A stretch of 64,000 nucleotides of DNA from Haliclystus octoradiatus (lineage: Eukaryota > Cnidaria > Staurozoa > Stauromedusae > Haliclystidae), in assembly GCA_916610825.1 (NCBI GenBank), contig OU744451.1, positions 23,200,349 to 23,264,348 on the forward strand, written 5' to 3'. The position numbers were made by a program, and so were the translations under genes. Shown here in pieces: positions 5,509 to 32,771 of the stretch. The notes below the pieces were generated by a model that was not told where the DNA came from, did no database searches, and saw only the letters and a program-made list of their open reading frames with translations. Numbering within the stretch: position 1 is the first letter of the stretch; each line of letters starts with the position of its first letter.

Positions 5509-5540
<32 letters not shown>

Positions 5541-8500
5541 ACACGCAATTAATACTCATCAATAATGTGGGCATACAGTTAGAGGACTCTATTTCCAAAT
5601 AATTTCAATTATCACCTACTGCACAGCTTTTTCATTGCCATTTATAACAAAATAATGTAAATCAAATTAATAAAAGTCAGAGAATCAGACAGTCATGTTT
5701 GCATGTTTGCATGTTTGCATGTCAGTTATGTTTGTTTGTCTGATTCTCTGACTTTTATTATTTAAGCTCTGCTATATTTTGCATTGAGCCCTATGTTCAA
5801 TCAGTAAGACAACGTTTTACAAATGTAAATCAAATTATATATTTTATCTAAATGATAATTATATTAATGTTTTTTTAATTAATTAAGTTTTACTTAATTA
5901 CATCTTCTTTTTTAACAAAGTATTCTGTTAATTACGGTTATGAGTCAATTGCAAGAAAAGCCTGAAAGACAGTAATTAATTTCAAATGATAGATACAATA
6001 TAAAAATAAATATTAAGATATTAAACATTTAATGTTATATCATTAAAAAAAAATTGTTTTCACTCGTATAATCATCATTTTCAGTTACGAGGGAGGTATG
6101 CTAAATTTAAGTTGTCAGGCTTCATGTTATCCACTGATGTGAGGTTATGAAATAAAGAGGTTAATAACTAAATGCCTTCAAATGAAATATTGAACAATAT
6201 AGGCTCCAAAATATTTTCTATTATGTCTTTGAAACTATTTTTGGAAATCGAAATCTTTTTTATTGTTTTTAATTTTTTCACTGTCTTGGCCTTAATGAGT
6301 TAAGTGCAGCGCAATACAAACACACTTTTTGAGTTTCACATACTTCAGACTATATAACCATGCGACAGTATACACACAAATATTTCAATAAATATTATTG
6401 AAGAGTTCCTACACCATTGCCCTTGCTTCCAATACTTCTTTTGTTTCTCCCAGCTTTTCTGAGTGCCGTAATTATGAATATATACAGGAAAAAACAAGCA
6501 TGTAAGAATCCAACTGACTTTTGTCCTGTAGCATTTCATATACAGAAAATGATATAAGGTAAAATGATAATAATAATACGGAAATATATATTATCTATTT
6601 GTAAAAAATAGTGCTTTATATATAAAGACAACCAATAAACCATTACACAAACTTATCAAGTAAATATAATCCTTCAACTGTGAACAATGTATCGAGTTCA
6701 TGAACGTTACGAACATTCATGAACTGTTCATGAACGTTGAATGGCCCAGTTAGTTTTTATGGATTTTTTGATGAACTGTCCTGAAAAATTGGACAAGTTA
6801 ACCCCTGCAAAAACAGTTCAGGATATCATGAACAGTTCACGAACAGCTCATGAACGTTAAATGGCCTTAAACTTTCATGAACTGTTCATGAACTGCCTGT
6901 GAGGGTTCATGAACAGTTCATGAACAGTTCAGGAAAATTGGAGCCATTTAACGTTCATGAACTGTTCATGAACTCTTCTGAACTACTGTTTTTTGCAGGG
7001 GAACGTTCATGAACTGTTTTCAAAGGGGTTTGCTTGGTTTCTTAGAAACAAATAATGTTCAATGCTATTTCTAGTATAATTTTCTTATACATTTAATTTT
7101 AATCTCTATTGCAGATCAACCACCAAAGGAGGTATGACCTATTACCTATAACCTATGAACTTGTTGCATTGTATAAATATAAGATTGTAAAGCTTTGTAT
7201 AGATTATATGTTGGTCTAGTTTTGAATTTTTTTGAATAGTTTTTAAAGAGCATAGCAGTGCCATATCTCTGAGTAAATATTTTCTGAGTTCATGAACTTT
7301 TCATGTAATTTTCTATGAACTCTCTATGAACTGTTCAGAAGTTTCATGAACTATTTTTCAACCTCATTACTTATCATGAAATGTTCACAAATAGTTCACA
7401 AACTTAATGAACAGCTCATGTACTTTATTAACATTCTTGAACTGTTCACGAACCCCTCATAAACAATTCATGCACTTTGAATGACCAGTTTTTCATGAAC
7501 TTCTCACAAACCTTCAATGGACTATTTATCAACGGTTCATGAAAAGTTCATCATTTTTATGAACATTCATGAATTTCTCATGGATAGATCATTCAAGTCC
7601 CATGAAAAGGTTCAAAAAGCCTCCCATGAACCTATAATTGAAAATTCATGAACGTTTCATAACAGATCATTATAATTGGATTATTTAATGTCTGTGAACT
7701 GTTTTATAGGGTACTAGTGCCATTCTTGTGCAAAACTTTCTTGGAATTCTAATGTTCAGATTAGCTGCAATCTTATTTTTTTAATAATTTTGCTTATAGA
7801 AAGTTAAATATCCCCAATGAAGTTACAACAAGAGCCTCTTTACCCCTGATGGTCTCCTCCTTGAAACTGAAAGTCGCGACACACAGGCAGGGTTCAGCAA
7901 AAGTTGAGATCCTAGATCCCGAAGGCTAGAGCAAATTTAGAAGAAAAATGATAATTGTCTAATTTATTTGCCAATCCTTAACAAACATTTCAAGAAAAAA
8001 TGTTGAAAATGTTTGAAGATTCCTGAAGGCTAAATCTTCAGGCTAGAACACATTCTTACTAAAAGTTGTCCCATGTATTTCTCAAATCACAAAATTTTCC
8101 TATAACTTCTGTTAGCCTGACTGTGCTGAACGTCTGACATATTATACAGAGCAAGGGAGTTTTCCTTCAATAAAATGATGTGCATCATTTCTTTTTATTC
8201 AAGTTTTTCCCCATTACCCCAAAAAAAAAACATAATTTGTTTTCTTGTCAACCCTCTTTTAATGAATTATCATTCTATTAAATTTATAATATTCCTAAAT
8301 TTTATTCACAGTTCTCCTTTGACTTCTCTTATTGGTAAGTGATTTAGATTGTTTAAATTAGTTAAAGAGTTCAGGAGTTCATTAACGGTTCATGAACTTT
8401 GCAAACTTTCATAAACTGTTCATGAACACCTTGTAAACAGTTCATGAATTGTTCATGAACTAATTCATGAATGCTATATGGTCCAATTTTCATGAAAAGT

Positions 8501-11500
8501 TTATGAATTTTGCAAACTTACATGAAACCCAGTTTTCATTAACTTTTCATGAACAGTTTGAAAAATTTTACAAACTTTTGTACCTTATAAACAAATCATG
8601 TACAGTTCAGTTCATGAACTAATTCATGAACAGTTCATGAACTAATTCATGAACAGTTCATGAACTAATTAATGAATGCTAGATAGCCCAATTTTCATGA
8701 ACGTTTCATGAACAATTTATGAATTTTACAGACGTTCATGAACTGTTCATGAACACCTTATAAACGGTTTATAAACAGTTCATGAATAGTTCATGAACTA
8801 ATTCATTAACATTAAATGGCCCAATTTTAACTTTTCATGAACAGTTTATGAATTTTACTGACGTTCATGAACTGTTCATTAAAACCTTATAAATAGTTCA
8901 TGAATAGTTCATGAACTAATTCATGAATATTAAATGGCCTAATTTTCATGAACTTTTTGTGAACAGTTTATGAATATTACAGCCATTCATGAACTGTTCT
9001 TGAACACCTTATAAACGATTTATGAACAGTTTATGGATTTTACTGACGTTCATGAACTGCTCATGAACACCTTATAAACAGTTCATGAATAGTTCATGAA
9101 CTAGTTCATGGATATTAAATGGCCCAATTTTCATGAACTTTTCATGAATAGTTTATGAATTTTACAGATGTTCATGAACTGTTCATTAATACCTTGTAAA
9201 CAGTTCATGAACAGTTCATGAACTAATCCATGAATGTTAAATGACCCAATTTTCATGAACTGTTCATGAACACCTTATAAACAGTTCATGAATAGTTCAT
9301 GAACTAGTTCATGGATATTAAATGGCCCAATTTTCATGAACTTTTCATGAATAGTTTATGAATTTTACAGACGTTCATGAACTGTTCATTAAAACCTTAT
9401 AAATAGTTCTTGAATAGTTCATGAACTAATTCATGAATATTAAATGGCCCAATTTTCATGAACTTTTCATGAACAGTTTATGAATTTTACAGACGTTCAT
9501 GAACTGTTCATTAATACCTTGTAAACAGTTCATGAACAGTTCATGAACTAATCCATGAATGTCAAATGGCCCAATTTTCATGAACTGTTCATGAACTATT
9601 TTTACAGGAGATTGAACTAGATATATTGCCTATTATCCGCAAGTGTTCCGTTTTCAAAATAGTTCATCAACGTAAAATGGCCTAATTTTCATGAACTGTT
9701 CATGAATTCTTATGAAGTTGTGTCTAACCATTTATAGGCACTTAAATCTTCTCGTGGTCTCTTATTTACTCCTTGCTATAAAACATCCTGCTTCAAAACA
9801 ATTATCAACTAACAAAATTAATTATGAATTTAGTAGCAATGAGTCATTCTCAATGCTAGGTTAATTTAAATAACATAAGTAAACTATAATAAATGTTTCA
9901 ATTCACATCACACATACGCATTCTTTCGAGTTTATAGGTTATAGGTATATATGGATTTTCACACTATTTTCACAGTATTTTCACAGTATTTTCACATTAT
10001 TTTCATACTATACTCTCTCTCTTAAAGGTCTCATGATGATTATTCTGAAGATGATGGCGGCAATCTTGTGGCAACAACCGACAGATATGCTGATCAAAGA
10101 AAGGTGTTTAATGATCTTGGCCAGGGTGTACTAAACAATGCAGTTGAAGGTAATTTAATACTCAATAAGCTATTTAGACAACCTGCGTTGAACATAAACT
10201 TTGATGAACTGTGACAAAATACCGGTAGTTCATGAACTTTGTTGAGTTTTGATGAACTTTGATAAACTCTCTCTCATAACTGATTGAATAATAATTTTTT
10301 ACAGAAAGTCATGATGAACAGTTTTTATCAGTTAAGTTTATGAGCTATACGCTGTTTTAGCGTTGATGAACTAAGTTTTTGAATGTTCATATAATAGTTC
10401 ATCAAATTTTCGATATGGGTTTAGAGCAAGATCATAATTTTAAATAACCTCCTTATGAAACTTCTTGATCCAGAGATATTTTTTATTTTAGGGACCACCC
10501 CTGCAAAAAAACAGTTTAGGAGTTCATGAACAGTTCATAAACAATTCATGAACGTTGAATGACCCCATTTTTATAAGCTGTTCATGAACTGTTCATGAGC
10601 AGTTCATGAACTCTCGCAGACTGTTTATGAACTGTTAGATAATCAGTCATCGTAAGAATATGTAAGAATATGTTTGAAAATATATTTTACAATAAAATTT
10701 CTTGAGAGTAAGCTGAGATTATACATTTTGTAGGTTTCAATTGTTCGTTATTTGCTTATGGACAGACAGGATCAGGAAAATCATATTCAATGGTTGGATA
10801 TGGACCTAATAAGTAAGTAATTACAACCCATGCGTTATTTTTTTTTCGGGATTTCGATTAGGACATTTTGGTTATTTTTTGTTGCAAATTTTCTTTAAAA
10901 TTATATATGCAATCAACCTCACTCATGCGAAAAAAAGTTCAGGAGCTCATGAACCCTTGAACTCAGTTATGAACTCAGTTCATGGACTGTTTCATGAAAA
11001 TATGGAACCTGTTCATGAACTCTTGAAATAAACCTTGATGGGTCTGAAATAAGTTGTATGAAATGTATGTTTTGATTTCCCAGGCCTCATATTAACTCCG
11101 TCTCAGATGCCATACATTACATACATACATTATTAACATAAATTGTTAGATTGATTCAAATTTTTAAATTTTAGGGGTATTGTACCGATCACGTGTGATG
11201 AACTTTTCAAATTGATCGAGAGATCTTCAACTGACATTGTAAGTCTATACCAGTATCAACTTTTTCATGAATTATTTTAAAATCATGTTTGATCAAACGC
11301 AAAATAGGATAGTCTCTATAAAGGAGTTACCCTTGCTAAAGTTACCCTTACCCGTGCGGCCTTGGTGTAGTGGCTAGGGTGTTGGAACACAGCCTGCAGG
11401 GTCTCGGGTTCAATCCCTGTCCGAAGCACTATAGGTTGGCGTCAGGAAGGGCATCCGGCTATTAAACGCACACAAGCTTCAAAATACTAACAAATTAACC

Positions 11501-14500
11501 AACCACCCCAGTGAAAAAAAGCTGTAAGCTTACCCGGTTCGTGGAAAAATGATAAAAACAAAAAAAAAAAAAAAAAAAAAAAAAGTTCATGAGTTCACGA
11601 ACAATTAAAACGCAGTTCTCAAATTACCCAGGAATGTTCTGTGAAAAATACATGAACATTAATGGGCAATCTAATGTCTATGAATTTATGAACTTCCTTT
11701 CACAGGGGTAGCAAATGACTGTAGGTGTCAACATCTTTGCACATCTTTGCAAAAACATTAGTTGTGTTCATGAACTTTGCAATCCTTCATGAACTGTTCA
11801 TTGAACACATTATAAACAGTTCATAAACAGCTCATGAACGTTAAATAGCCCAATTTTAATGAACTGTTCATAAATGTCCATAAAAATAATTCATGAACTT
11901 TTAATAATTTATCACTTATAAAAAATTCTTCAAACATGAACTCATACATTTTATTTTTGCAAGTGTAATTACGAAATAAATAATGTACCATTCAATGCGT
12001 GGCATTTCTGATTCGTTGCTCAATCACCCCTGCAAAAAACAGTTCAGGAGTTCATGAACAGTTCACAAACAGATCATGAACGTTAAATGGCTCCAAGTTT
12101 TGCGGAACTGTTCATGAACTGTTCATGAACTGTTCATTAACAGTTCATGTCATGAACCCTCACAGACAGTTCATGGACAGTTCATGAACAGTTGATGCAA
12201 ATTTGGGGCCATTTAACGTTCATGAACTCCTGAACTTTTTTTGCAGGGGCATGCATTATTTCCTTGTAGAACATGATCGACATCGATTGACATTTCTCAC
12301 TTGGTTTTTGATTCAAAACGCAAATTTTTCTGTAATAAATTTTGTTTTTACTACTGTATTTTCACTAATGAATAATTAGACACCTTCCTTCATTTTCAAT
12401 TGTCGTTGTCAATGTATCGTTATTTAATGTATCAGATCATAAACTCTTCATGAACTCACTTCATTTTTCTGCAGGGGTATAGTTTCGTCTATACGGCAAT
12501 TTTTCCAATTTTTCTTTCCTTTTTATCTCCAGAAATATCAAGTTACATTCAGCATGTTGGAAATTTATAACGAACAAGTGAGAGATCTTTTACGCAAAGA
12601 TAACCCTAAAGCAGGTCTTCCGGTAAGTGTAAATGATGTTTTGGTATCCAACATGATAATTTTATTGTGAAAAATGTTTTGAACTAAATTACTGAATATT
12701 TACAAGATAAAAACAAGGAAAAATGGTTAAATGACAGAATGACAGAAAATGGCAAAATTCAATATGACAGATCTTAACCCCTGCGAAAAACAGTTCAGAG
12801 GTACCTGAACAGTTCATGAAAACGTCCATGAAAATTGGGCCATTTAACATTCATCAACTGTTCATGAATACTGTTTTTTGCAGCGGTAAGTTAATTTTAA
12901 ATTACAGAAATATTTTGAAAACCAAACAAATCTAATTCATGAAAATTCAAAGGTTTATTAACAGTTTATAAATAGTTCATTCAATTTTCATAAGTTTTTA
13001 GTAATTAATGATGAGAGTAATGATAATTTTATTTTTTAGGTGAGGCAAAATCCCAAAATAGGTGCATTTTATGTCCAAGGACTCAAAACAGTTGCTGTTG
13101 GAAGCTATAAAGAAATTGAAAGTCGAACAGAAGAAGGTAAATAGCCCTTGCATGAAATCTGTTTGAATTCAAGAGCTCCCTCAGCAAAAAATTTGCTGAG
13201 TTCATGAACTTTATGACCTGTTATTGACCTCCTAAACAGTTCAACCCCTGCGTAAAACAGTTTCAGCACAAAACAGAACCAGATTTAACAACACATTAAC
13301 GCGGATTAATCTTGCAACTCGATTTTGACGTCATAGATGAGAATTTTGTGTTTGGTCAGGTATTATCAGAATTGTTAACGTTTCAGTAAGAAAGTCCTGT
13401 AAAAGTTATTAAAAATCTGCTGGTTATTTACAGAGCAAATTTTCGTAAATATTTATCACGCCGTAGCTTTATAAATCACCAGGTACATAATCAATAGACA
13501 TCATTGTCAGGCACTAGAAAATCACCAACCAACTTAGTTAAGTGTTCATATTACGTAAGTGTTCAGATTACGTCCTATGTGAAAACAGTTCATGAACGTT
13601 GAGTGGTCTAATTTTCATGAACAGTTCATGAAGCAAGTTCATGAAAATCAGATCAATTAATGTTCATGAACTATTCGTTTACTGTTTGTGAACTGTTTAA
13701 AAGGTGTTCATGAACAGTTCTTGAAAGTTTATGGTCCATAAACAGTTTATGAACTCAACTAAGATTTTCGCACGGAGTGGTAACCTACAAGCGTAGTATA
13801 CCCTACTGCTTCAAAAACAATCAAAACATTGAAATATTTTTATTAATTTCTTGAATGTTATTTAATCTTAGGAACAGCAAACAGAACGGTTGCCTCAACA
13901 AATATGAATGCAACTAGCTCAAGAGCGCATACAGTTGTTACCATTTGTTTTGATCAAATTTCAAAAAATGAAATGGGTCAAGAAACAAAGAAAACAAGTA
14001 CAATTAACCTTGTCGATCTTGCAGGTAAGAAAATCATTTAAAGCATGTGATCCCCTGCAAAAATAGTTCAGGAGTTCATGAACAGTTCATGAACGTTAAA
14101 TGGCCCCAAATTTTCATGAACTGTTCATGAACTGTCTGTGAGGGTTCATGAAAATTTAAGCCATTCAACGTTCATGAACTGTTCATGAATGTTAAATGGC
14201 CCCAAATTTTCATGAACTGTTCATGAACTGTCTGTGAGGGTTCATGAAAATTTAAGCCATTCAACGTTCATGAACTGTTCATGAATGTTAAATGGCCCCA
14301 AATTTTCATGAACTGTTCATGAATTGTCTGTGAGGGTTCATGAAAATTTAAGCCATTCAACGTTCATGAACTGTTCATGAATGTTAAATGGCCCCAAATT
14401 TTCATGAACTGTTCATGAACTGTCTGTGAGGGTTCATGAAAATTTAAGCCATTCAACGTTCATGAACTGTTCATGAATGTTAAATGGCCCCAAATTTTCA

Positions 14501-17500
14501 TGAACTGTTCATGAACTGTCTGTGAGGGTTCATGAAAATTTAAGCCATTCAACGTTCATGAACTGTTCATGAATGTTAAATGGCCCCAAATTTTCATGAA
14601 CTGTTCATGAACTGTCTGTGAGGGTTCATGAAAATTTAAGCCATTCAACGTTCATGAACTGTTCATGAATGTTAAATGGCCCCAAATTTTCATGAACTGT
14701 TCATGAACTGTCTGTGAGGGTTCATGAAAATTTAAGCCATTCAACATTCATGAACTGTTCATGAACTTCTGAACTGTTTTCGCAGGGGATGACATGATGT
14801 TTGTAATTTTTTATTGTGACCTCTGTAGTTTTTCCCATGCTAGAGGGTCCCCTGTAATCCCCCCATGCTTGAAGTTCACGAGTTGTTCATCAGTGGTCTG
14901 TTTATGTAAGAAATCATACTGTTTCGAGTTCGATTCAAAATTAATTTGCACCAAATGGGATTTTCAAAAACTTTCAATATTGCACGAGCGGGTAGAAGGA
15001 GGAATTTAATCCAGAATTTAAAATGACAAGCAGTATGATTACCTTCTGATCACATACCTGCAAAAGTATTCATAAAACTCACAAAGAAAAATATGTAATA
15101 ATGTTTGCCAGAAACAAACAAAGAGGTGATCACGTCATCAAACAAAATATTACTTTGAGCAAACATGTTCCAATTCCATGTTACCATGGTCCACATTTTT
15201 CAAAGTCTGTTTTGTTGGCTAGTTTTTAGTTCGACGGTTGTAACGATTGGCTCAGATGGTAGAGCGGCCAAACTGGACAGGTCTGATCATATCTGATCTA
15301 CTGTGGTTTGAATCCCCCGAATGTCAACTTAGCCTTGACTTTATGTAAAAAAAACCATCAAATTAGTACAATTTAATGATGGCATATGGAATGATCCAGA
15401 GGGAATTGCATTGTTAGTAGCTGAGGCATATCATTGCTCATTGACAGTTGAGACCTATCTGCCATGAAATCTATTGAAAATGATCTCCAATATCACGGCT
15501 AAGATCAATAAAGAGTGTTTAACATCACTGCTCTCTGCAAAAAGAGCCACTCCTTTAGAAATAGAGGAGTGGTACGGGTGGCTTCGGTAGGGCAGTACCG
15601 TCTCAATTATTCACTTTATTATTGTAACTTATTTGATTGAAATATTTTTAAGGATCTGAAAGAGCTGACAGTACAGGGGCCACTGGTGATCGTTTGAAAG
15701 AAGGAGCAAATATCAATAAAAGTTTATCATCGCTTGGAAATGTTATTTCTGCATTAGCTGATCAATCAATGGGTAAAAAGAAAGTTCTAGTTCCTTACAG
15801 AGATTCTGTTCTAACCAAACTATTACAAAATGCTCTTGGTGGTAATAGTAAAACTGTAATGATTGCTGCGTTGTCACCAGCGGATATCAATTATGATGAA
15901 ACATTATCTACCTTAAGGTAAATCCCAAGTATTGAATGAAACATATCGGATGTCAAAGGTCTTGCCTGTGAGACATTGCTTTTAACACTCTAAACTCTCC
16001 CAGAGTATCTTTGAACCATTTTCCTGTAAAAACAATTCAATTTAACGCTCACAAACAGTTCATGAACTGTTCATTAATATGTTCATGAACAGCTCATATA
16101 TGTTTGTGAACAGTTCATGAACTTTTTTAAGGTATTCATGAACAGCTAATCAATTGAATGTATTTTAGAAGTAATTTGGATTTAATTAGGTGTGCTACAT
16201 TTACAGAGAAATTTGCTCATGGGATTTGAACACTTGAAAGCAACACAATGTATCTTTTGAGCATACACCCCATGTGAAAACAGTTCATGAACATTGAGTG
16301 GTCCAATTGTTTCATTGACTGTTCATAAACTGCTTGGTAAACTGTTTATTTTGTAAGGTGTGCATGGACTTGTATAATTCTTTAAATGTTGTGAAGTAAC
16401 TGTCCATGAGCTGCAATTCAGGAGGTTCATGAACAGTTCATGAACTCAACAAACTTTTCTGCAATGATCTTAAAGGATGTTATAATTCTAATTCCAAAAT
16501 ATTTTCCATGTACAAATTGAGCTCCATCAGTATATTTTCTTCAACAAACAATAACTTCTGATCTGATTGGAAATTTTTATTGTGATTTTTATCGTTTTAT
16601 TATTTTTACATCAAGTTCAAACTGCAACTTTGGAAGCGTTTTGAACCTGTTTTTGTTCTGTGTTGATATGATGATTAAGTCAATCAGATTAATAGAAATT
16701 TTATTTTACAAAACCATATAACAAGCAACCGTTATCCTATAGGTACGCAGACAGAGCAAAGAAAATCAAGACAAAAGCTGTTGTTAATGAGAACCCATTG
16801 GATAAACTTATCCGTGAACTTCGTGAAGAAAATGAACGACTTAAGAAGTCTGCTGATGGTGGAAACCTAACAATAGGAGGCGATGGAAGTACAATGTCTG
16901 CTGAAGGTATTGTTACAAGTAGATATGAAAGATTATTGGAAGATACCAAAGGCTGAAATGTTCTAATGGATTACATTTTAATTCAATCCTTCGTTATCCC
17001 TGTGAAAAAAGCTGATTAGATTATGAATATGAAATTGCCCAATTTTTTTATGAACCTTTCGCGAACAGTTCATGAACACTTCAAGAAGTATTCGAAGATT
17101 GTTCATGATCTGTTCATGGATTAAAGAATATTTTCGCTACGCACTGAACAATTAAGCTGAATAATCACACGCATATTTGTCAAAAAAAAATCAGGCAAAC
17201 TTAATTTTTTCTGCAACGTAAAATCATCAAGTGATGTTCTAATATGACTCAGACTACCTCTGCGAAAGCGGTTCATGAACAGTTCATGAACTGTTCATGG
17301 ACAGTTCATAAACGTTGAATGGCCCCATATTTTCATGAACTGTTCATGAACTGTCTGTGAGGGTTCATGAACTGTTCATGAACTCCTGAACTGTTTTTCG
17401 CAGGGGTATTTTCAAACAATCACTTGACTAATTTCATGGTTTGAATTTCAGAAATAGAAGCAATGCGCAAAAGTATGCAGGATGAAATAATGGCTCAAAT

Positions 17501-20500: not shown

Positions 20501-23500
20501 AGTTCATGAAAGTTTGCAAATTTTTTAAAGGGCATTTATTTTTTATGAACTGGTAATGATCTGTTTATAAGGTGTTCATGAACCTCTCACAGATGTATAT
20601 AAAGGTTTTGAACTGTTTGTAAATAGTAGCAAAAACAACCTGGCAAGAAACAGTTTTTGTTTTTTTCCAAATTTATCATTTGATCATTCACAAGCCTGGA
20701 TATCCTGCGTGATACATTTTCTGATATATTTTATATATATTTCTGCGTGATATGTGATCTTATTTCGTAGATACATTAACATTTTCTTGAAAGCTCTTGG
20801 TAAAACATTAAGGTCACTATGCCATGCCTATACCAGATGGATTGAACATTTTGTCCAAACTTTGCAACTCAATCCAATTCAATACCATATGTGAATGCCA
20901 CTTATTTCTTCCATTAATCTTTTTGATTTATTATTAATTAATTTAGGATTGATGACAATTGGTCGGAAAGATGGAGAACCGGATATTATTATGAGCGGTT
21001 TGAGGTAAACAGTCCATGTAAAATTATTAGTCAATTACCAAGTAATTCAAGTAATAGGCGGATTAGCTCAGATGGCAGAGCAACCGAACTTCAGATCGGA
21101 TCATATCTGATCGACCGTGGTTCAAATCCCCCTAAGGTCAACTCAGCCTTGACTTTATCTGAAACATCAAATGAGTACCATCTGAGGATGGCGGATGGAA
21201 TGGTCCAGAGGGAATTGCATTGTGAGTAGCTGCGGCGCATCGTTGCGCATTGACAATCGAGACCTATCTGCCATGAAATTTGTTGAAATTGATCTGCAGT
21301 GTCGCGGCTGAGATCAACAAAGAGCGTTTAAAATCATTGCTCTCCGCGAAAAAAGCCACTCATCTAGAAATAGAGGAGTGGTACGGGTGCCTTCGGTAGG
21401 GCGACACCGTCTACATTACTTTTTTAAGTAATTCATAAGAGATTCAATCAATGTCATAGGTCAATAGTTATTAGTTAAGGTAGTAGTATTCACTGATCAA
21501 TTCTGTGAATAGCAGTTCATGAGTTCATGAACGTTAAATGGCCCCAAATTTTCATGAACTGTTCATGAACTGTCCGTAAACTGTTCATGAACTATCCGTT
21601 GAACGTTCACAAACTGTTCACGAACTCCCAAACTGTTTTTCATAGGATTATGGTGTTGCCCCTCTTTTAATTTAAACAGACTTAGATCCTATCGTTTCAT
21701 TCTCATGTATTTAATTTTGCTAATTATTCATGTAAGATATCATGTGATTTCTGTTTTAATTATTTCTGATTCTAGTATTCAAAAGCAGCATGTCATTATT
21801 ATGAATAACGACAATGAAATCACAATCAAACCAGCAACACCTGGGGCTAAAACAAAAGTTAACGGCATGGCACTCACCGGTGAAAGAGTTCTGAAGCATC
21901 TTGATAGAATCTTGTTTGGTAAGCATCAGTCAGCATTTTAGTATAAAAGATAGCGACAGAAAATTACAACATATTTTTACACCAGAGTAATCTATTTACA
22001 AGAGTTGAGCCAAGCTTTCATGTGCCGCTATCGTCTCCTCTTGAACAGTGAAATGCGCGAAATAAACAGCATTTTCCGCACATGCGCACTGTTAAAATCC
22101 TGCTCAGGTCCATCCCTGCAAAAAACAGTTCAGGAGTTCATGAACAGTTCATGAATAGTTTACGAACGTTAAATGGCTCCAAATTTTCATGAACTGTTCA
22201 TGAAAATTTTGAACCATTTATGTTCATGAACTGTTCATGAACTGTTCATGAACTCCTGAACTGTTTTCGCAGGGGCAGGCCAAAAAGATCTGATCAACAT
22301 TACTTTAGGTTAATCTTTTGGGCGGGGTTAAAGCCACATGAAATGTGTTGTCCATACCTGCTTGAAAATAATTCACAAACGTTAAAAATAGCCCAATTCT
22401 AAGGAAACTTTTATAAACAAGTCCGTGAAAATTAGGCCCCCAACGTTCATAAACTGTTTGAAAGGGTTCATGAACTCAAACATTATTCCTGAGGTGTACT
22501 CATGATAGCCATGAACACAATAAAAATTACCACATCAAACTTTTTTATAAAGAATAATACCAACATATTTCTTAATTCTTGGGAAATCAATTCATTAACG
22601 TTTGATTGCCAAATTTTCAAGAACTGTTCATGAAAATTTAATGAACAATTCAAAAAGGTTTATAAAAAGGTTTGTGAGACGGTTCATGAAAACCAGGCCA
22701 TTTAGCTTTCATGAACTGTTCACGAAATGTTAATAGAGTTCATGCTTTGTTCATAAACAGATAAACAGTTCACTTAGAACAGTTCATGAATTTAGTAAAT
22801 TTTTACTCAGATGAACTAGCTACTGCTACTATAATACTTTTCGTTGTTGTATTTACCAGTTGATCATACTCCGAGTAAGTTAAGTAGCTGATATTTTATG
22901 CATGTGTGCGTAATCGGATGTTCTTCCTGATGCAAACCAATGCTGCTTACTGCCAGGGATTGAACCCAAAACCCTGCGGGAAGAGGTCCTAATTCCTTTT
23001 CTGATGTGATGAATTGAAAGAAACAATATTTTCATTTAGGTTCAAATCACATGTTTTATTTTGTGAATCCATTGAGTAAAGATAAAAGTGAAGGAACACC
23101 AGATAAAGTTGACTGGGAATTTGCACAGAAAGAAATTGCACAAGCGAAAGGATTTCATACAGGAATGGGATCTGGTCTAACTCAAGGTACGTATCATGTC
23201 TGAGTGTTTTTCGCTTTAGAAATCATAGGATCATTCTGTAAGCAAACACGATAATGCAACTGTGGATAACATTTACGCTGGCAAGAAAGCACACGTTGGT
23301 TCACAGACCCTATGGTTTTAAGAACAAACTCTGGGGTTGGCTAGTGTAACTAATCTTCTGTTAAAAATTTTGCGAATTCTAGACAGTTTCAGAACAGTTC
23401 ATAAAAGTTAATAAAATTTATATTTCCTGTTTTTCATTAAAGGGTTAATGCATGGGTAACAATGTTCCATCATAAAATCTTTCCAAGAGTCACAGATTGG

Positions 23501-26500
23501 GAGACACAGATGAAGCATAATGAATAAAAAAGTTTATTCTAGCTTCCTGAGGTGTCTCTAAATATCCCGAGTGTAATATTTCGTGTTGGAGAATGGCAGA
23601 TTCTGTGCATGAAATCTGTTTAATAAACAATATTTTTTTAATATGATATCCCCGACAATGAACTTCCTTCTGAATATTTGCTACCCTTCTGGAACTCCCA
23701 ATCCCCTAACGTCCCCCATTTTAATCGCTTCTATTGAACAATGGAGATTGAAAAATTCAGGAAAAAACATGAATGCGAAAATCATTTTCCGCAGCGACAC
23801 ATGATTTTCTGATACCTTCTTGTTTTCTCTTTTTGTGCCCTCTCGTGTGACATAAAGCAATAGCTCATATGAAAATGTGTACCAATTGCTTCATCCTCTG
23901 TGAACATTTTTTGTGGGTTTATGAACAGTTCATGAACAGTCAAGAAATCAGCCATGCGAAAACCTTGAAAAAGGTTTATGAGGTTTTTACTGAAAAAATT
24001 ATAATAATAATGATGATGATGATCATGGTAATGTAATGTAGACGGTGTCGCCCTATCGAAGGCACCCGTATCACTCCTCTATTTCTAGAGGAGTGGCTTT
24101 TTTAGCTGAGGGCAATATTTTAAACGATCTTTGTTGATCTCAGCCGCGACACTGCAGATCAATTTCAACAGATTTCATGGCAGGCAGGTCTCGATTGTCA
24201 ATGCGCAACGATGACCGCAGCTACTCACAATGCAATTCCCTCTGGACCATTCCATCTGCCATCTTCAGATGGTACTCATTTGATGTTTCAGATAAAGTCA
24301 AGGCTGAGTTGACTTTCGGGGGATTTGAACCACAGTCGATCAGATATGATCCGATCTGAAGTATGGTTGCTCTGCCATCTGAGCTAATCCTCCTTTAATG
24401 ATGATCATGGTGATGATATACAAACAGCAAACTCTTATTATGCTTTCTTTCTAGTTTTGAGTTGCTTAATCATTTTCCCTCTATGAACTGTAGGTCAAAT
24501 TGAGGCCCAAGAACAAGTTGTAGAATTGCTTCCAATGGTTAGTGAAGTCAATGCAATCAGCGAAGAGCTTGATAAACACAAGTAAGATTATTTTAATAAT
24601 AATATCTTACTATAAATAAATATATTTCGCAAAACAAAGAGATTTTATCAAATTACCCATGCAAAAAACGTTTAGAACGTTAAATGGCTCAATTTTCATG
24701 GAATGTATATAAACTGTTTATACCGTGTTCATGAACAGTTCATGAACTCAAAACATAGACAGTCTGGTTATAGGAATATTCCAACCCTTTTTTTGCCTAA
24801 CAAGTTTGCTAAACAAAGAACAACACAAATCATGCTGACCCCTCCGAAAACAGTTCAGGAGTTAATGAACAGTTCATGAACAGTTCTAAACAGTTCATGA
24901 ACGAAACATAAAAAGACCTTATTCACAACAGGAAACTGTGTGATGCATGTGTAATATATATTGTGTGTTATCCCCAGCTGTAATGTAATGCTAGCTGACT
25001 GCGGTCATCCGTGATTGTTAATAATAGGAAATGATAAGTCTTGTAAAGGGAGTTGCCTTGAGTCCTCCGAAGAGAACAGTCTGATAAGATAATTACCTGA
25101 ACCTTTTACTGTGTCGTTTATGTCTCCCTCACATCGACCATAGTCTTACAGAAACATTAACATATAATGAATTATGAACATAGGTGATGAATAGTTCAAG
25201 TTCACAGACAATTAATGGCTTGTTTTACCATGAACTTTTTCATGAACTGTCTGTGAGAAGCTTATATCGAACCCCTGAAAATATTTACTGAGTTTATGAA
25301 CCTTGTGAAGTGTACATGAACTGTTCATTAACAATTAATAAACAGTTCATAAGTTGTACAAACATGCATTGACTGTTCATAAACACCTTAAAAACAGTTT
25401 ATAATGTAGTGGATTGTTTTATGTCTATTGTCTTATCATAATGTATTTTCTTTGTTAACTGTAAAGCTTCCGTTTGTAATCATGTATACCTTGTAAATGT
25501 AAATCACTGTCTGTAATGTATTCACCTTCTTCACGTCTGCCCTTCGTAGCGACAGCATCCATGTTAGCAAAGCTGGAACACCTTCATAGAGGCTCTGTTT
25601 ATCAACGGTCATATTAACCCTCATTCATCCTCTCCCTGTTGGTGGCCAGCTACAGTTATTATAATTACAATTACACAAATATATATCCTATCAACGCCTA
25701 TGTATGTGTGATGGTATTAATCAATACTTCGTACATTCCACCCGCTACAAAAGCTTGGCTGTTATGATCTTTTCCATGTAAATTTGACCATCTAATAATC
25801 ATGAACTGATTTCAAAGTGAAATAAACAAACCAAACATAATTTTATTTTTATTGAAAATTTTGGATTTATTGAAGCAAACTCTGACTGTGTTTATTTTTC
25901 TTTTCAGAACATTTGAGGTAATCTTGGTTGCTGGAACATCACAAGAAGAAACAGGAAAAGGAACAAAGTAAGATAAAAAATAATTCAGATGAAATAAAGA
26001 AGTAGTACCCCTGCGAAACAAGTTCATGAACATTCAGAATTGTTCATAACTTTATGAACGTTCATGAACTGTGCTGAACAGTTCATCAACTTTAAAGAAT
26101 AATTCATAAAAATATGGTACATTAACTCTTACAGTTCATGAATGTTCATTTATTTTTTGATAAACTGATTTTATGAACTTTGGTGAACTATTTCATTAAC
26201 TTCTGTTGAACTTGAGTTCATGAATGTTCATGAAATTTGGTAAACTGATTTCATGAACTTTGATGAACTAGTTCATGAACTTTGATGAATTAGTTCATGA
26301 ACTTTCATGAACTTTCATGAACTTTGCTGAATTGATTCACGAACTTTCTTGAACTTTTGATGAACTATTTCATTAGCTTTATTTCATGAGCTCTGACGAA
26401 CTTTGATGAACCAGTTCTTTAAAGAATAGTTCATAAAAATATAGTTCATTAACTTTTAATGACCTAGTTCATTAACTTTGGTTGAACTTGAGTTCATGAA

Positions 26501-29500
26501 CGTTCATGAAATTTGGATAACTGATTTCATGAACTTCGAAGGGTTAGTTCATAAACGTTTGTGAACTTTGATGCACTATTTCTTGAATTTTGATGAAATA
26601 TTTCTTGAACTTTGATAAACAACTTCATGAGCTCTGACGAACTTTGATGAACCGGTTATTTAAAGAATATTTCATAAAAATTTAACTCATTTACTTTTGA
26701 TGAACTAGTCCATATTGAACTTGAGTTCATGAACGTTTTTGAAATTTGGAAAACTGATTCCATGAACTTCTACTTTTTGGTCAAAACTAAATATACATAA
26801 TTGCGTATTTCACTGTTAGAACAGTTCATGAATGTTAAATGACCCATTCGTCATGAACTGTTGCCGATCAACTTATGAAATGCAGAACAATTTAATGCTC
26901 ACAAACTGTTCATAATGTTTATGAACACCCCTGCGAAAACAGTTCAGGAGTTCATGAACATTTCATGAACAGTAGCATTTCATGGGTTGCTATTGAATAT
27001 TTCCTGAACGCAATACAGCTTTTTCAGAAGGGTATTTGTGCACAGCTTGTAGCAAACGTATCTGTAATTGGATTTTTTTCATAGAGTTCTTGTGAAGTTG
27101 AAGAATTTACTCAATGATAACATTTGGCTTTGGGATAGAGGAAAATTTACAAACAGAAGATATCTTATGCAGGTATAAAGTAGCGTATTATTCATCTCTA
27201 TATTAATAGTATTGTTTGTAAAAATTTTTTTTGTATATTTCTATATTTGTGGTCTGTCTGCGACTTATGTACGTCTCACTAGCAAAATAACACAGATAAT
27301 CTGTTGTCGGGAAATTATGCAGATCTTTTTGTCAAGATATCCTTGTACAGTAACATATTTGTGGTATAAATATTATGATTTTCTGGCGTTGATTTTATTT
27401 GATTGATGATTTTCAATATTCGAAATCGTTTGCTAAGGTATTCTGTGATTTTTTAATTGCCCGTGTTAATTGAATACTATACTGTCTCTTTTACTCATTC
27501 TGCAGTATCTGTCTAAAGTTTATGAACAATTCATGAATTCATGAACCAGTCCATGAAATGTTCATGAACTCTTTGTGACTGTTCATGAACTGTTCATGAA
27601 CCCACAAAAAAATGTTCATGAACTGTACATGAACTGATGGATATTTTTTACAAGGAAAATTCTATCTATTGTTATTATTATTGATTATTTTCAATATGAT
27701 TTTAATTCATCTATTTTTCAATTATATTTTACTACCTGGTTAACATTTACTTAATAATACGATGCATTTTTTAAAATAGGATTTGTACCAAAGACTTCTT
27801 GATGGCGATGAATCTGTTAAAACCATGCCGAAGGAAGAAGATCCATTCTTTGATCCACCAGAAGATGTATTAATTGGTACAGCAAACGTATTTCTTCAAA
27901 GTTTATCTTACGCTCTTGATTTTGATGACAAATTGTCAATTAATGACTATAAGGTTAGTAAAAGATACCCTTGCGAAAATAGTTCAGGAGTTCATGAACA
28001 GTTCATGAACAGTTCATGAACGTTAAATGGCCCCACATTTTCATGAACTGTTCATGAACTGTCTATGAGGGTTCATGAACTGTTCATGAATTGTTCTTGA
28101 ACAGTTCATGAAAATTTGGGGCCATTTAACGTTCATGAACTGTTCATGAACTGTTCGTGAACTCCTGAACTGTTTTTCGCAGGGGTAAAAGAAAAAAATA
28201 TGACTCTAGACGCTATGCTCAGACATATTGATGAATGATATATTGAAACTATATTTGGTTTATTTTTTTACGTTATAGTAACGTTATAGCAATTGTTTAA
28301 TTATAAGTGATCTGAAAGTTTTATCATAAAAGGTCCATTATGGACCACACTCATTGCTAGACAGATTTAAGTTTAATCATATACTAATCTTATACCCCTT
28401 GTAAAAGCGTTTCATAATCGTTGAGTGCTCAAATTTCACAATGTTCATAAATGTAAAATGGACCAATTTTTATGAACTTCTTGTGCATTATTCATGAATT
28501 TTTTATAAACAGTTCATGGACTAATATGAAAAGTTCTTGAGCAAGTTCATGGAAACCCCTGCGAAAAACAGTTCATGAACTCCTGAACTGTTTTTTTTTG
28601 CAGAGGAATTGGACATTTATTGTTTATGAATTTATGAATTGTTTTTTGTTCAGCTCATAAAACGATTCATGAACTTTTTTTTTTGAGTTGTTCAGTAAAC
28701 TATTTTTAAAAGATAGTAGATAAAACTCAATCTGACACCAAACAACAACAAAATAATTATGTTTATATTTTATAGGGGTCAGAAGAAGGCAGTATCATTG
28801 TCAATGTCACACCATGTAATGAAACTGGGAAAGCATTAGATGAAGATTATTTTGTTGAAGAACCAAAAAATTTGATTGGAAAACCCTACCATTTCAAGGT
28901 ACAGTAAAACATGTTGTTGCAATCATGTCTATACAGCGGGCTACCTGTTTATAATGGTCACTTTTGTAATACCTTGAATAGTATTTCTATTGATTCAACC
29001 TGCCTATGAAGGCCACTATCAGTCTATCTAAATCTCATTGCTGGCTATTAAAGACAGGTCTCTAGGTATTATCATTTATTTATTACAGGTAATAATAGTT
29101 GGAAGTCAAATTCATAGGACAATGGAAAAAATATGGTAGATCTTAACAGACTCCTTTTTTGCTCAGTTAATATTGGATTTCAAAATCACAATGCTGTTTT
29201 GTAGGAAGCATTGGAGTTACCTTATTTTGTTGAAACCAATTAAACCTGCACTCCAAATTTGAGTATCATTTTAATAATTAAAATGTATACATAGCCTTTT
29301 GGGACACAACCGGTTTAGATATATCCATACATGTGATTGTTGCGTTATTGCACAGCTCGACTAATGACTATTTCCCCGTCAAATTATTGACCTTGAACAT
29401 TGCATTCTGAAGATTCTTGTTTCCCACTTTTTGAAACCGAAAAGGAATGATATTATTACCACAAGAGATTTGATTGTGATGATCGTCCAACATTGCTAAC

Positions 29501-32500
29501 TTTATATTTCTACACACAAATCAAAAGGCGGATCCTGCTAGCTACTTTCCTTATCTTGTCATTTATTCTAAAAAGAGCTAAATACCTCAAAGTTGGAACT
29601 TTTCTTTTTTAATACTTGTGCAGTGCTTTAGTGGCAAGTATATACTTAATACATCAGCAGGATTATCATGCCGTTGGAAGACTAAAGCTTTTCGTCTCAT
29701 ATTAATCTTAAATCTATTACAGTGAAACTGTAAATAACAGCCAGCTACCAGAGGTAGATAAATTGACCACTATAGACAGGTGACCTTTATATACAGGTCT
29801 GATTCAGTAGAAAATAATGTTTTAGACATTGCAAGAGTGTTAACTATATACAGGTGGTCATTGTATAGAGGTGGCCGTTATAACAGGTTTGACTGTATCT
29901 GTCAGTTTCATCATCTTAATTCTAATCTAGCTATGTATCAATTTCAATATCAGGTTGTAATTCGAAATGCCGAAATAAAGAAAGCTCGATTCTCCCAAGG
30001 TCTTTATTGTAAATATCGTGTTCATGGTGAAACTGATTATACAGAGACGCCTGTTATTGCTGGAACATTATCACCTGAGTTTAACCATTCAAAATTATTT
30101 ACATTTAAATCAGCGACACAAGAACATTTAGATTGGTTTGAAACAGGATGTATTAGTTTTACAGTCTATGGTAAACAAGTCGATGGTGTAGCTGATCAAA
30201 GATTATCAAAAATGACAACCAAGGTTTGAAAATAGAACAAACACATATGTTTACTTGTTTGTGTTTTCATTTATTTGGTAACACCATTAGCTGTGAGCTG
30301 TTCATGAGCTATATTGTTGTGGACAATTAATGATCAGTTCATGAACATTTATGAACTAATCATCAACGACATGCCGCGTGGCTCGTGATTTTCTGATGCT
30401 TCATCGTTTTCTACGTACATGTCAAATATCAATACCTCATAGGAAACTGTACTCCAATTGCTTACTCCCCTACGAAAAGTAGTTCAGGAGTTCATGAACA
30501 GTTCATGAACGTTAAATGGCTGCAATTTTCCTGATCTGTTCATGAACCCTACTGAACTGTTTTCGCAGGGGTTTTATTATCACTTGCGAAAACAGTGCAG
30601 GAGTTCATGAGCTGTCCATAAAAAGTTCATGAACTTTAAATGGCCCACATTTCCATGAACTGTTCATGAACTGTCTGTAAATGTTCATGAACTGTCCATC
30701 AACAGTTCATGAAAACTGGGGACATTTAACATTCATGACCTGTTCATGAACTCCTGAACTGTTTTTCGAAGGGGTTTATGACTCACTATTCAATAGTCTA
30801 TCAGATAGCACTTTACAAACTTTGCATCTTCTTGCTAGGAAGACTGACTACTCATCTTATCATATTTTGATTTATATATATTTTTAAGGAGCTAAGAACG
30901 ATGGAACACATTCAAAAACCAGCTATGACTTCTCGTGAATCAACATTTAAACCTGGAAATGTCTCAGAAGTTACACAACTGAAATCAGAAGTTATCTTGT
31001 TGAAAAGGAAAAATAAATTATTGCAAGAAAAAGAAAAAAGATTACAGGTCAATGATAATTTTCTTATTGTTCATGGTGTACATTTATGAGGCAGTAGCTT
31101 GACACCTATACCTATAGGACACATCATCACCGACTTTTATTCCAAAAATGTTTTGAAAGTTGATTTGTGTTTTGACTTGATAACAATATGTTTTTAGGAG
31201 TGGTTGATGAATCCTAACAGACGATGATTGATATTTTGAATTTAATTTCTTTAGTCAATGGATGATTTACCCAACGAAAAAACTAGCTGAGTTTGTGTCT
31301 GTGCGTGTATTTTTTTATTTTAATTTGTAACCAAAATGAGCATTATAGCTCGTTTTACATTAGTGATACGAATTACAGTAATTTACAGATGTAAAAAATT
31401 AGCAAATACAATTTAAAATTAAATTGGATAAAGCGAGAAAAATCCTTTTGATTGCTTCCTTTCAAATTGTTTTCGAACTTCAATTTTGAATTTATCTCGA
31501 TCATTTATCGTTGATTCCTCAACTGGTAACGTTGACCAGAGTCGAAGACTAACAGCCACAAAAGATCTTGCCTATCTTGTGAATTGTTCATGAAAAGTTC
31601 ATGAATTTTACAAATTTTCATGAACTGTTTATAAACCCCTTATAAACAGTCAATGAACAGTTCATGAAACATTAATGGTCTTTTCAATTTAATTTAACAA
31701 ACTCAAACCCATTCTGATATTTTCAGAGATAGTATGTCGTTCTACAGAATATTCACATTGCAATTTGTTTCGATTTTGTAGGACATGGTAACGGAATGGG
31801 ACAAAAAAAGTGAAGATGAAAAAACCTTTGAAGCATATCATCGTTCTATGCAAGCAGTGGCATTTCACCAAAGAGGACAACTGAAATATAAAGTCAACAT
31901 GGTGCGAACGGTAAGTAGCATCACAATGAAAATGCTATGAGACTAAATTTACTTGATACCCGCCTCTGGTGAACATGGTCTGACAAAAGTGGGGATCCTG
32001 GGATTCTAGATCCCAGAAAGCTATAGCAAATTCAGAAGAACATTGATGATTTTCTGATTTATAGGCCAAACGCCAACCAACAAAAGTAGGGAGTCTTTTG
32101 GAACTTCATAATGAGAAGTGTAAAATTCAGTGTATAGAAAAAATTCAACAATAGTGTTTATTTTCTTTGTTTTGGAACATCCCCTGTCAAAAGAGTTCAT
32201 GAAATCATGAACGTGAAATTGCCAAAAAAATTCATGAACTGTTCATGGGGTCTTCATGGAAAGTCCATAAAAGTTCATGAACAGTTCATGAAATGATCAT
32301 ACACTGTTCATGAAGTGTTGGGCAACTTCACGTTCACGTACCAGTTCATGAGCCGATTCATGAACTGTTCATGAACCCACACAATTGTTAATGACTCTTC
32401 ATGAACTGTTCATGAACCCACAAAAAATGTTAATGACTGATCATGAACTGTTCATGAACCCACAAAAAATGTTAATGACTGTTCATGAACTGTTCATGGA

Positions 32501-32771
32501 CCCACAAAAAATGTCCATGACTATCCGTCAACTGTTCCACAAAAAGTGTTCATGAACTGTTCATGTACTAAACAAGAAAACCGACTGATCTAAAAAACTC
32601 ATTTTTGTTGGTATTTCTCCATTTCAGTATTTGAAAAATCAGCAACATGACGAAGAAGTCAAACAAAAACTATCAAAAGATGAAACGCATCATTCTGAAG
32701 GTGTAGAAAAATTACCTGAAAGTGAAGCATCGGAGACACAACAAACAAGTAGAGCTTGTACAGTTATGTAA
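3790..32771 (+). CDS. Kinesin-3 family motor of KIF28/KLP-6 type, complete 27-exon gene (1001 aa) with C-terminal CaaX box
   Basis: Exons: 3790-3803, 3896-3934, 4047-4123, 7115-7131, 8312-8334, 10028-10149, 10734-10812, 11175-11238, 12533-12622, 13040-13136, 13872-14024, 15653-15917, 16743-16906, 17452-17540, 20240-20369, 20947-21004, 21776-21918, 23040-23186, 24494-24581, 25908-25967, 27085-27172, 27780-27953, 28776-28898, 29954-30223, 30889-31047, 31782-31910, 32628-32771. All introns are GT-AG and the frame closes over 3006 bases. ATP-driven microtubule motor. Seen: [10 protein letters not shown] near the N terminus, P-loop GQTGSGKS (107-114), switch I NATSSRAH (220-227), switch II DLAGSER (256-262), an acidic/basic neck region to about 430, an FHA domain (about 445-550; GR 480-481, SIQKQH 494-499, NG 523-524), then a C-terminal tail with a short predicted coil. 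The last residues are CTVM, a farnesylation-type CaaX motif. Architecture and length fit KIF28/KLP-6, which carry mitochondria or ciliary membrane cargo. The 14-base first exon is the least certain part. Confidence 0.93.
4690..5290 (+). pseudogene. Decayed 3' end of a non-LTR retrotransposon (LINE)
   Basis: Lies in kinesin intron 3. Frames 4720-4905 and 4865-5131, shifted relative to each other, encode the typical C-terminal tail of Jockey/CR1-superfamily ORF2: [16 protein letters not shown] readable across frames, then [22 protein letters not shown] and a terminal KWNNL. Frameshifts and truncation make it inactive. It ends in AATAAATGA repeats followed by GATGATGATG, a tail shared with the fragment near 59990. 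Confidence 0.75.
5318..5539 (+). mobile_element. tRNA-derived SINE, family 1, copy 1
   Basis: Box A-like GTGGTTAGAGCGTTGGA and box B-like GGTTCAATCCC mark an RNA polymerase III promoter of tRNA origin. The body contains GGTTGGCGTCAGGAAGGGCA, a core also seen in other invertebrate SINEs, and a long A-tract ends the element (about 5511-5539). A second copy is at 11355-11584 and a diverged reverse copy near 22855-23000. Confidence 0.85.
5668..5760. repeat. Hairpin with (CATGTTTG)n loop
   Basis: The arms TAATAAAAGTCAGAGAATCA and TGATTCTCTGACTTTTATTA are exact inverted copies, and the region between holds three tandem copies of GTTTGCAT. Small foldback element in kinesin intron 3. Confidence 0.8.
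6680..7680. repeat. GTTCATGAAC repeat cluster, kinesin intron 3 and 4
   Basis: Dense, partly degenerate copies of the palindrome GTTCATGAAC and half forms (GTTCATGAACTGTTCATGAA) flank the 17-base microexon at 7115-7131. At about 6800-7003 the copies are arranged as a large palindrome bounded by CCCCTGCAAAAACAGTTCAG and its inverse CTACTGTTTTTTGCAGGGG. The first members of the swarm described below appear here. Confidence 0.85.
8345..9720. repeat. GTTCATGAAC higher-order array in kinesin intron 5
   Basis: About 1.4 kb made almost entirely of GTTCATGAAC-type words organised in longer imperfect units. Each unit reads roughly: GTTCATGAACACCTTATAAA, a few TTCATGAA words, ATTAAATGGCCCAATTTTCA, TGAACTTTTCATGAACAG, TTTATGAATTTTACAGACG. 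Units recur every one to two hundred bases and are diverged, suggesting older amplification than the array at 14060-14770. Confidence 0.85.
11355..11584 (+). mobile_element. tRNA-derived SINE, family 1, copy 2
   Basis: Starts GCGGCCTTGGTGTAGTGGCT (box A region), has box B GGTTCAATCCC, the GGTTGGCGTCAGGAAGGGCA core, and ends in an A-tract of more than 20 bases. Nearly colinear with the copy at 5318-5539. Inserted in kinesin intron 8. Confidence 0.88.
12026..12248. repeat. Complete palindromic GTTCATGAAC unit, kinesin intron 8
   Basis: Bounded by CACCCCTGCAAAAAACAGTT and by the inverse AACTTTTTTTGCAGGGGC. The interior is a string of GTTCATGAAC words with GTTAAATGGC and its inverse GCCATTTAACG placed symmetrically. 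The whole unit can fold on itself. Confidence 0.8.
14047..14788. repeat. Recent 96-bp tandem array of the GTTCATGAAC unit, kinesin intron 11
   Basis: The marker CCATTCAACGTTCATGAACT (last copy CCATTCAACATTC) recurs at 14161, 14257, 14353, 14449, 14545, 14641 and 14737, an exact 96-base period. Copies differ by only a few bases, so amplification is recent. The array is bounded by CCCCTGCAAAAATAGTTCAG at the left and CTGAACTGTTTTCGCAGGGG at the right, i.e. it is an internally expanded version of the palindromic unit found elsewhere in this gene. Confidence 0.93.
15241..15603 (+). mobile_element. tRNA-derived SINE, family 2, copy 1
   Basis: Box A-like TGGCTCAGATGGTAGAGCGG and box B-like GGTTTGAATCCCC, then a body ending in GAGGAGTGGTACGGGTGG and GGTAGGGC.GTACCGTCT. 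Same family as 21057-21413, 24038-24393 (reverse) and fragments near 35756 and 51625. Lies in kinesin intron 11, just before the large exon at 15653. Confidence 0.85.
17254..17406. repeat. Palindromic GTTCATGAAC unit with TA flanks, kinesin intron 13
   Basis: Reads TA-CCTCTGCGAAAGCGGTTCAT ... CTCCTGAACTGTTTTTCGCA-GGGG-TA. The matching TA on each side is compatible with a 2-bp target duplication. It ends 45 bases before exon 14. Confidence 0.7.
17611..19631. mobile_element. 2-kb foldback DNA transposon with about 220-bp inverted termini
   Basis: The left end AGTGGGAATAAACCCCCAGA and the right end, inverted, AGTGGGAATAAACCCCCAGA match. Similarity continues about 220 bases (e.g. TACATATGTAGTAGAACCCG, CAAAGTGGTGTTTTGACCCA, AAGTCACAAGTCGTGCGGTT on both sides). 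Flanks are TTAA on the left and CTAA on the right, possibly a decayed TTAA target duplication. The interior, about 1.6 kb, has no recognisable transposase, so the element is non-autonomous. It occupies most of kinesin intron 14. Confidence 0.85.
21057..21413 (+). mobile_element. tRNA-derived SINE, family 2, copy 2
   Basis: GATTAGCTCAGATGGCAGAG (box A region) and GGTTCAAATCCCC (box B), followed by the family body with CCTTGACTTTATCTGAAA, GGTCCAGAGGGAATTGCATT and the end GGTGCCTTCGGTAGGGCGAC. In kinesin intron 16. Confidence 0.88.
22112..22276. repeat. Palindromic GTTCATGAAC unit, kinesin intron 17
   Basis: Begins CCCTGCAAAAAACAGTTCAG and ends CTCCTGAACTGTTTTCGCAG-GGG, with symmetric GTTCATGAAC words and GTTAAATGGC inside. 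One of the more complete individual copies. Confidence 0.75.
22855..23000 (-). mobile_element. Diverged SINE family 1 copy (reverse)
   Basis: Read on the minus strand: TTTTGGGTTCAATCCCTGGC (box B), then GCATCAGGAAGAACATCCG in place of the GGCGTCAGGAAGGGCATCCG core of the other two copies, and ACGCACACATGC in place of ACGCACACAAGC. The A-tail is not clear. Confidence 0.65.
24038..24393 (-). mobile_element. tRNA-derived SINE, family 2, copy 3 (reverse)
   Basis: Reverse complement of the family 2 sequence: GTAGACGGTGTCGCCCTATC at the 3' end and, at the other end, GGGGGATTTGAACCACAGTC (box B) and GCTCTGCCATCTGAGCTAAT (box A). In kinesin intron 18. The open frame 24177-24359 is just SINE sequence. 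Confidence 0.88.
26000..26990. repeat. Degenerate TTCATGAAC/TTTGATGAAC cluster, kinesin intron 20
   Basis: Many copies of TTCATGAACTTTGATGAAC and GTTCATGAAC forms with a looser pattern than the other clusters. It contains two long related segments (about 26160-26420 and 26440-26670) sharing TCATGAGCTCTGACGAACTT, i.e. a diverged internal duplication. Confidence 0.7.
27965..28187. repeat. Complete palindromic GTTCATGAAC unit with TA flanks, kinesin intron 22
   Basis: Reads GATA-CCCTTGCGAAAATAGTTC ... CTGAACTGTTTTTCGCAGGG-GTA. Left and right halves are inverted copies, with GTTAAATGGCCCC matched by GGGGCCATTTAAC. This is the clearest single copy of the family, and its left end starts only 12 bases after the exon 22 donor. 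Confidence 0.8.
28931..29905. mobile_element. Non-autonomous DNA element filling kinesin intron 23
   Basis: The left end (CTATACAGCGGGCTACCTGT, then TAATGGTCACTTTTG) and the right end read on the minus strand (GATACAGTCAAACCTGTTAT, GGTCACCTGTCTATAGTGGTC) are related inverted repeats with TGGTCAC/GTGACCA-type words. A fragment of the same family lies near 42050-42170. It covers nearly all of the 1055-base intron. No coding capacity is seen inside. Confidence 0.6.
30470..30775. repeat. Two adjacent palindromic GTTCATGAAC units, kinesin intron 24
   Basis: Unit 1 (about 30475-30571) runs from CCCCTACGAAAAGTAGTTCA to CTGAACTGTTTTCGCAGGGG. Unit 2 (about 30583-30773) runs from CTTGCGAAAACAGTGCAGGA to CTGAACTGTTTTTCGAAGGGG. 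Side-by-side copies with their own ends support the view that the unit is mobile or duplicates as a module. Confidence 0.75.
32180..32570. repeat. GTTCATGAAC cluster with 68-69-bp tandem subunits, kinesin intron 26
   Basis: Last cluster of the swarm. The phrase CATGAACTGTTCATGAACCC followed by ACAAAAAATGTTAATGACT recurs several times between 32355 and 32510. It ends about 50 bases before the final kinesin exon. Confidence 0.75.

Follow-up and report, generated by a model that had tools for sequence, protein, structure and literature searches.

Palindrome-laden introns of a kinesin gene in the stalked jellyfish Haliclystus octoradiatus: a heavily infested case of a probable MITE-like, foldback-type transposon family

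The introns of one kinesin gene in the stalked jellyfish Haliclystus octoradiatus are crowded with a palindromic 10-mer, GTTCATGAAC, which raises the question of whether the palindrome arose and multiplied in this gene or is the locally conspicuous part of a repeat family that inhabits the whole genome. We searched for it in the 64-kb stretch of DNA that contains the gene (hereafter the window, C7:23200349-23264348) and throughout the assembly (261.86 Mb, 33 contigs). The window holds 132 exact copies, against 0.16 expected from 100 dinucleotide shuffles in which the maximum was 1, and 130 of these form a swarm of which every member lies in an intron of the kinesin gene model (Table 1). Stray copies had been noted at three places elsewhere in the window: the remaining two copies are indeed at 34762 and 40823, and near 41118 there are octamer cores, TTCATGAA, alone, without the full 10-mer.

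The gene model, derived from open frames and splice signals, may be missing exons at its 5' end; it has 24 introns, where the original prediction numbers them to 26, and a further N-terminal exon is probably present near 3.9 kb. The best solved match of its product is 7wrg, annotated 'Kinesin-like protein' (E 6.4e-213), which we take to be nematode KLP-6, followed by KIF1A. The original prediction of a palindrome swarm within the introns of this gene is confirmed, and its description of most introns as filled agrees with the 10-mer being present in 21 of the 24 modelled introns (the octamer in 23). Copies on both sides of nearly every exon proved a more generous description, the exon table giving 17 of 23 internal exons whose two neighbouring introns both contain the 10-mer. 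No copy occurs in the first modelled intron (3951-7114) before 6696, and the stop codon of the model ends at 32771, shortly beyond the last copy of the swarm. None of the 248 octamers in the window overlaps a modelled kinesin exon, while by simple arithmetic (coding sequence making up about 2.9 of the 25.9 kb) an even spread of the 242 octamers of the swarm would place roughly 27 in exons. Directly downstream of the gene is a prefoldin-subunit exon on the minus strand (33520-33780; Pfam Prefoldin_2, E 1e-10).

Table 1. Kinesin gene, palindrome swarm, two-ended elements and tandem arrays in the window (window positions; columns are feature, position, strand and basis)
Feature	Position	Strand	Basis
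Kinesin-3 gene; 24 joined exons 7115-32771 (957 aa) and putative N-terminal exon near 3.9 kb	3900..32771	+	exon model
Swarm of 130 exact GTTCATGAAC copies, all intronic	6696..32557		exact counts and exon model
Two-ended element with AA/AA duplication, inserted in an older copy; its removal restores the empty site	6802..7001		end and flank search, rejoining
Array of related modules enlarged by tandem expansion; 24 10-mers, 49 octamers	8376..9600		tandem-repeat search
Two-ended element, CA/CA duplication; near-full-length hairpin predicted, -136.2 kcal/mol, z -18.5	12027..12249		flanks and fold
Two-ended element flanked by AA and TA, without an exact duplication	12778..12886		end and flank search
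737-bp element, AT/AT duplication; inner 96-bp unit x7.2 at 99% matches (14074-14765)	14052..14788		tandem-repeat and end search
Two-ended element, TA/TA duplication	17257..17406		end and flank search
Two-ended element, CA/CA duplication	22113..22275		end and flank search
Diverged array with TTTGATGAAC modules; 6 10-mers, 14 octamers	26022..26740		tandem-repeat search
Two-ended element, TA/TA duplication; hairpin predicted, -162 kcal/mol, z -23.2	27968..28185		flanks and fold
Shortest two-ended element, 51 bp, AA/AA duplication	28556..28606		end and flank search
Two-ended element flanked by CT and TT, without an exact duplication	30467..30571		end and flank search
Array with 42-bp period; 6 10-mers, 12 octamers	32180..32560		tandem-repeat search

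The 10-mer is abundant far beyond this locus. There are 49,436 copies genome-wide (0.189 per kb) compared with 364 of the reversed pattern, and the restriction to one locus that had been proposed is contradicted by this count. Around other kinesin exons (113 matches in all, of which 20 loci were fetched and 19 used, the window locus being dropped) we found 52 copies in 56.3 kb of non-overlapping sequence, or 0.92 per kb, 4.9 times the genome mean; seven of about 13 such neighbourhoods carry the 10-mer. Dense regions also occur around an unrelated gene: C1:2271501-2281500 holds 35 copies in 10 kb, between the exons of an EFL1-like gene (E 7.9e-26 to the solved structure 5anb; Pfam EFL1 at 29.8 bits, slightly below the cut-off of 30.9), with none in the six open frames listed there. 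This is one of three comparison regions selected for clusters among the first 100 matches listed, which fall within the initial part of C1; the second has 29 copies in 10 kb and the third 15. Pairs of 10-mers at 11-bp spacing reach 15 in two 25.9-kb stretches within the first 2.66 Mb of C1, compared with 20 in the kinesin stretch. The latter nevertheless stands out from the genome as a whole, with 5.0 copies per kb (130 in 25.9 kb, and 69 in its densest 10 kb), about 27 times the mean, so that a genome count supports the clustering that was predicted and not the confinement: density is neither even nor restricted to this gene. The distribution is patchy, often genic and not specific to kinesins. 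It suggests a preference for introns across the whole genome, and being an intron is insufficient for infestation, because a stretch of a myosin gene is free of GTTCATGAAC over 10 kb. As an aside on the assembly, COX1 and COX2 can be read on one contig, where TGA is taken as an amino acid.

What carries the palindrome is apparent from its surroundings. Many copies sit inside elements with the ends CCCCTGC[A/G]AAAA...TTTT[C/T]GCAGGGG, and the exact 33-bp left end, CCCCTGC[A/G]AAAAACAGTTCAGGAGTTCATGAAC, occurs 704 times in the genome (368 forward, 336 reverse), the right end being its reverse complement. Reading inward from 29 distinct ends (30 were fetched, of which two gave one element), the arms consist of one to four consecutive 11-bp steps of GTTCATGAAC[A/T], often followed by GTTAAATGGC. 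The same step dominates the genome, with 6,438 pairs of 10-mers at 11-bp spacing and 41 at 18 bp. A search for two-ended copies (span of 40-420 bp, one mismatch allowed per 11-bp end CCCCTGC[A/G]AAA, at least one internal octamer, three overlapping loci excluded) returned 29, of 51-223 bp, and one further case reaches 737 bp through an expanded inner unit. These elements thus combine the small size, terminal inverted repeats, constant-length target duplication and high copy number of MITEs with the long inverted repeats of tandem short units that characterise foldback elements; at 51-223 bp they are too short for a transposase, and we judge them non-coding by that size.

The target duplication is 2 bp. 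Of the 29 two-ended copies, 22 have the same dinucleotide on both sides, against 4.1 expected from shuffled flanks, and agreement falls to 1 to 4 copies of 29 when the flanks are offset by one to four bases. Extending the comparison to 3 bp leaves 1 of 29 identical and to 4 bp none. The duplicated dinucleotide has no fixed sequence (TA 5, AT 4, CA 4, TT 3, AG 2, AA 2, CT 1 and TG 1), and seven of the 29 copies lack an exact duplication. Moreover, when two nested copies, one at 6802-7001 and one outside the window, are removed and their flanks rejoined, what is left in each case is a canonical inner arm in which the dinucleotide occurs once, that is, an empty site. Because of these duplications and the two empty sites, we attribute the origin of the copies to genome-wide transposition. 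A dispersed minisatellite, in which 11-bp units expand by slippage in place without transposing, would account for the strong 11-bp periodicity and the variable number of units; defined ends in both orientations, 2-bp duplications and empty sites are not expected of it, and we regard it as very unlikely.

Within the window, nine two-ended elements contain 45 of the 132 10-mers, and in seven of them the 2-bp duplication is exact. The other 10-mers lie in one-ended, diverged or tandem stretches, which their shared modules lead us to place, provisionally, in the same group. The arrays bear on the suggestion that the motif arose in the kinesin gene and multiplied there by tandem duplication and gene conversion among introns. 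Such local spread would explain both a density about 27 times the mean and the tandem arrays at 8376-9600 and 14074-14765; however, as the sole origin it is refuted by the 49,436 copies genome-wide, the identical ends elsewhere, the 2-bp duplications and the comparable swarms in other regions, and on its own we consider it highly improbable. The original prediction of local spread rather than genome-wide insertion therefore survives in part: the 96-bp unit repeated 7.2 times in the 737-bp element, together with the array at 8376-9600, identifies tandem expansion as a second step and second contributor, following an origin by transposition.

Repeats of other kinds share the window. A kinesin intron harbours another DNA transposon of about 2 kb (17606-19636), beginning AGTGGGAATAAACCCCC, with 224-bp inverted ends that are 95.5% alike. 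One SINE-like repeat, with a start that reads as tRNA-like, occurs at 15245-15603, 21056-21422 and 24030-24394 (the third on the minus strand), the outer copies matching the middle copy at 83% and 94% identity; a second, ending in A-runs, occurs at 5321-5534 and 11370-11584 (91% identical). Beyond the kinesin gene are a rhodopsin-type receptor in a single frame (48134-49171; Pfam 7tm_1, E 1.2e-12), a non-LTR retrotransposon (51874-56016) whose 433-aa open frame precedes a 946-aa frame that carries the endonuclease and reverse transcriptase domains, and an AAC-rich tandem array (58358-58803) adjoining a minus-strand open frame.

The near-total occupation of the kinesin introns invites two further explanations. 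Introner elements span an intron, splice sites included, and the copies might accordingly have created the kinesin introns and brought their splice sites with them. Octamers are present in 23 of the 24 introns and the right end, TTTTTTGCAG, reads much like a 3' splice site; however, the left end has no GT donor, and the nearest octamer in the kinesin gene is at least 25 bases from any donor and at least 69 from any acceptor. On these distances we reject introners in this gene, where the explanation appears extremely improbable. Alternatively, the palindromes may have been retained by selection as binding sites or RNA structures serving the kinesin gene, which would fit their absence from exons, their presence in 21 of 24 introns and the strong, near-full-length RNA hairpins predicted for two window copies (Table 1). 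Against this, the same elements occur genome-wide and in unrelated genes, and many stretches of the window read as diverged, resembling decaying copies, such that a selected regulatory role for the swarm is scarcely credible.

Taken together, these observations very probably reflect a non-autonomous, MITE-like, foldback-type family of DNA transposons that accumulated in introns and expanded locally, in a patchy genome-wide pattern of which the kinesin gene is a heavily infested example. The 11-bp palindromic step would be the repeating module of the element arms, variable in number. A transposase supplied in trans would move the elements and duplicate 2 bp of the target; insertions, some of them nested, would accumulate in introns, where they are tolerated, and selection would presumably remove them from exons. 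The inner units may then be enlarged by slippage or unequal exchange. The palindromes themselves may be sites of transposase binding, or of cruciform formation. A step of 11 bp, about one turn of the helix, is what cooperative binding by a transposase would lead one to expect.

A speculative extension of this mechanism is that helically phased palindromes, whether bound by transposase or extruded as cruciforms, draw in further insertions, and that a gene, once struck, becomes hot and its introns a self-reinforcing nursery of hairpins. Such self-attraction fits both of the nested insertions that we examined, which fell in the CATTTAACG core of older copies at sites some 4 bp from each other. 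The flanks of 29 element loci carry 0.80 10-mers per kb (right ends matched loosely or else set at 330 bp, one locus left out), with the excess 200-1500 bp away. Self-attraction is improbable, the more so because the 11.6 kb within 200 bp of elements contain a single exact 10-mer, a density lower than the genome mean.

Among the papers listed in a search confined to the literature, we found no description of the motif or the family. With its ends and target duplication defined, this very abundant family of stalked-jellyfish transposons is open to annotation and masking. The variation in density between genes, from 5.0 copies per kb in the kinesin gene to none in 10 kb of myosin gene, offers a natural test of what makes a gene a sink for small transposons, and RNA editing, small RNAs and circular RNAs might be sought in the intron hairpins.

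The 2-bp duplication narrows the comparison with known transposon groups. Tc1/mariner elements duplicate TA, which accounts for 5 of our 22 duplications, and we reject that filing; piggyBac, with its TTAA duplication, is rejected on 4-bp flank identity in 0 of 29. ISL2EU, of the PHIS superfamily, resembles the family in duplicating 2 bp; by the criteria in the available portion of the source (duplication of AT, ends that usually start GG; PMC4482050), this filing is also rejected, AT making up 4 of 22 and the ends starting CCCC.

CACTA, or CMC, elements begin CACTA or CAC and carry short subterminal repeats. Arrays of short subterminal repeats are thus a point of likeness, and a 2-bp duplication falls within the 2-4 bp given for the CMC group in the portion of PMC4482050 available. 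The ends here are CCCCTGC, not CACTA, and for that reason we do not file the GTTCATGAAC family there; the subterminal unit differs as well, and no shared transposase was found in the stretches inspected. The Transposase_21 profile has 36 matches in the genome, and a search of five 10-kb stretches and six loci of about 3.4 kb around such matches found no transposase with matching ends, the 10-kb stretches having other ends or no clear ends. One resident CACTA element of 7.3 kb has its own ends, CACTATGAATAAA, and subterminal repeats, AGTTGTGAAAA, similar in design and other in sequence; two other Transposase_21 regions showed no clear ends. Two near-identical resident CACTA elements (98.3% over 7 kb) share the CACTATGAATAAA ends and AGTTGTGAAAA repeats. 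Separately, DDE_Tnp_4 has at least 150 scored matches (414 candidates), many of the same score and with open frames of more than 500 aa, which suggests recently active Harbinger-type transposons in this genome.

Among cnidarians, the coral CMITEs are likewise small MITEs that can form tandem arrays, with one in a presumed intron; they differ in their TTAA duplications and piggyBac-like ends, at about 100 bp in length, and palindromic 11-bp steps are not reported in the portion of that account available (PMC2872659). In architecture the family resembles the foldback-type elements Tetris of Drosophila virilis and Galileo. From the available portions of their descriptions, both have non-coding copies with long inverted repeats that hold tandem repeats of variable number (PMC4079207, PMC4168063). 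Their inner repeats are about 220 bp in Tetris, where they can grow into satellite-like arrays, and about 140 bp in one copy of Galileo, compared with the 11-bp palindrome here, and Galileo duplicates 7 bp rather than 2 bp. What is unusual in Haliclystus is the local density and the palindromic arms; otherwise the family is largely ordinary.
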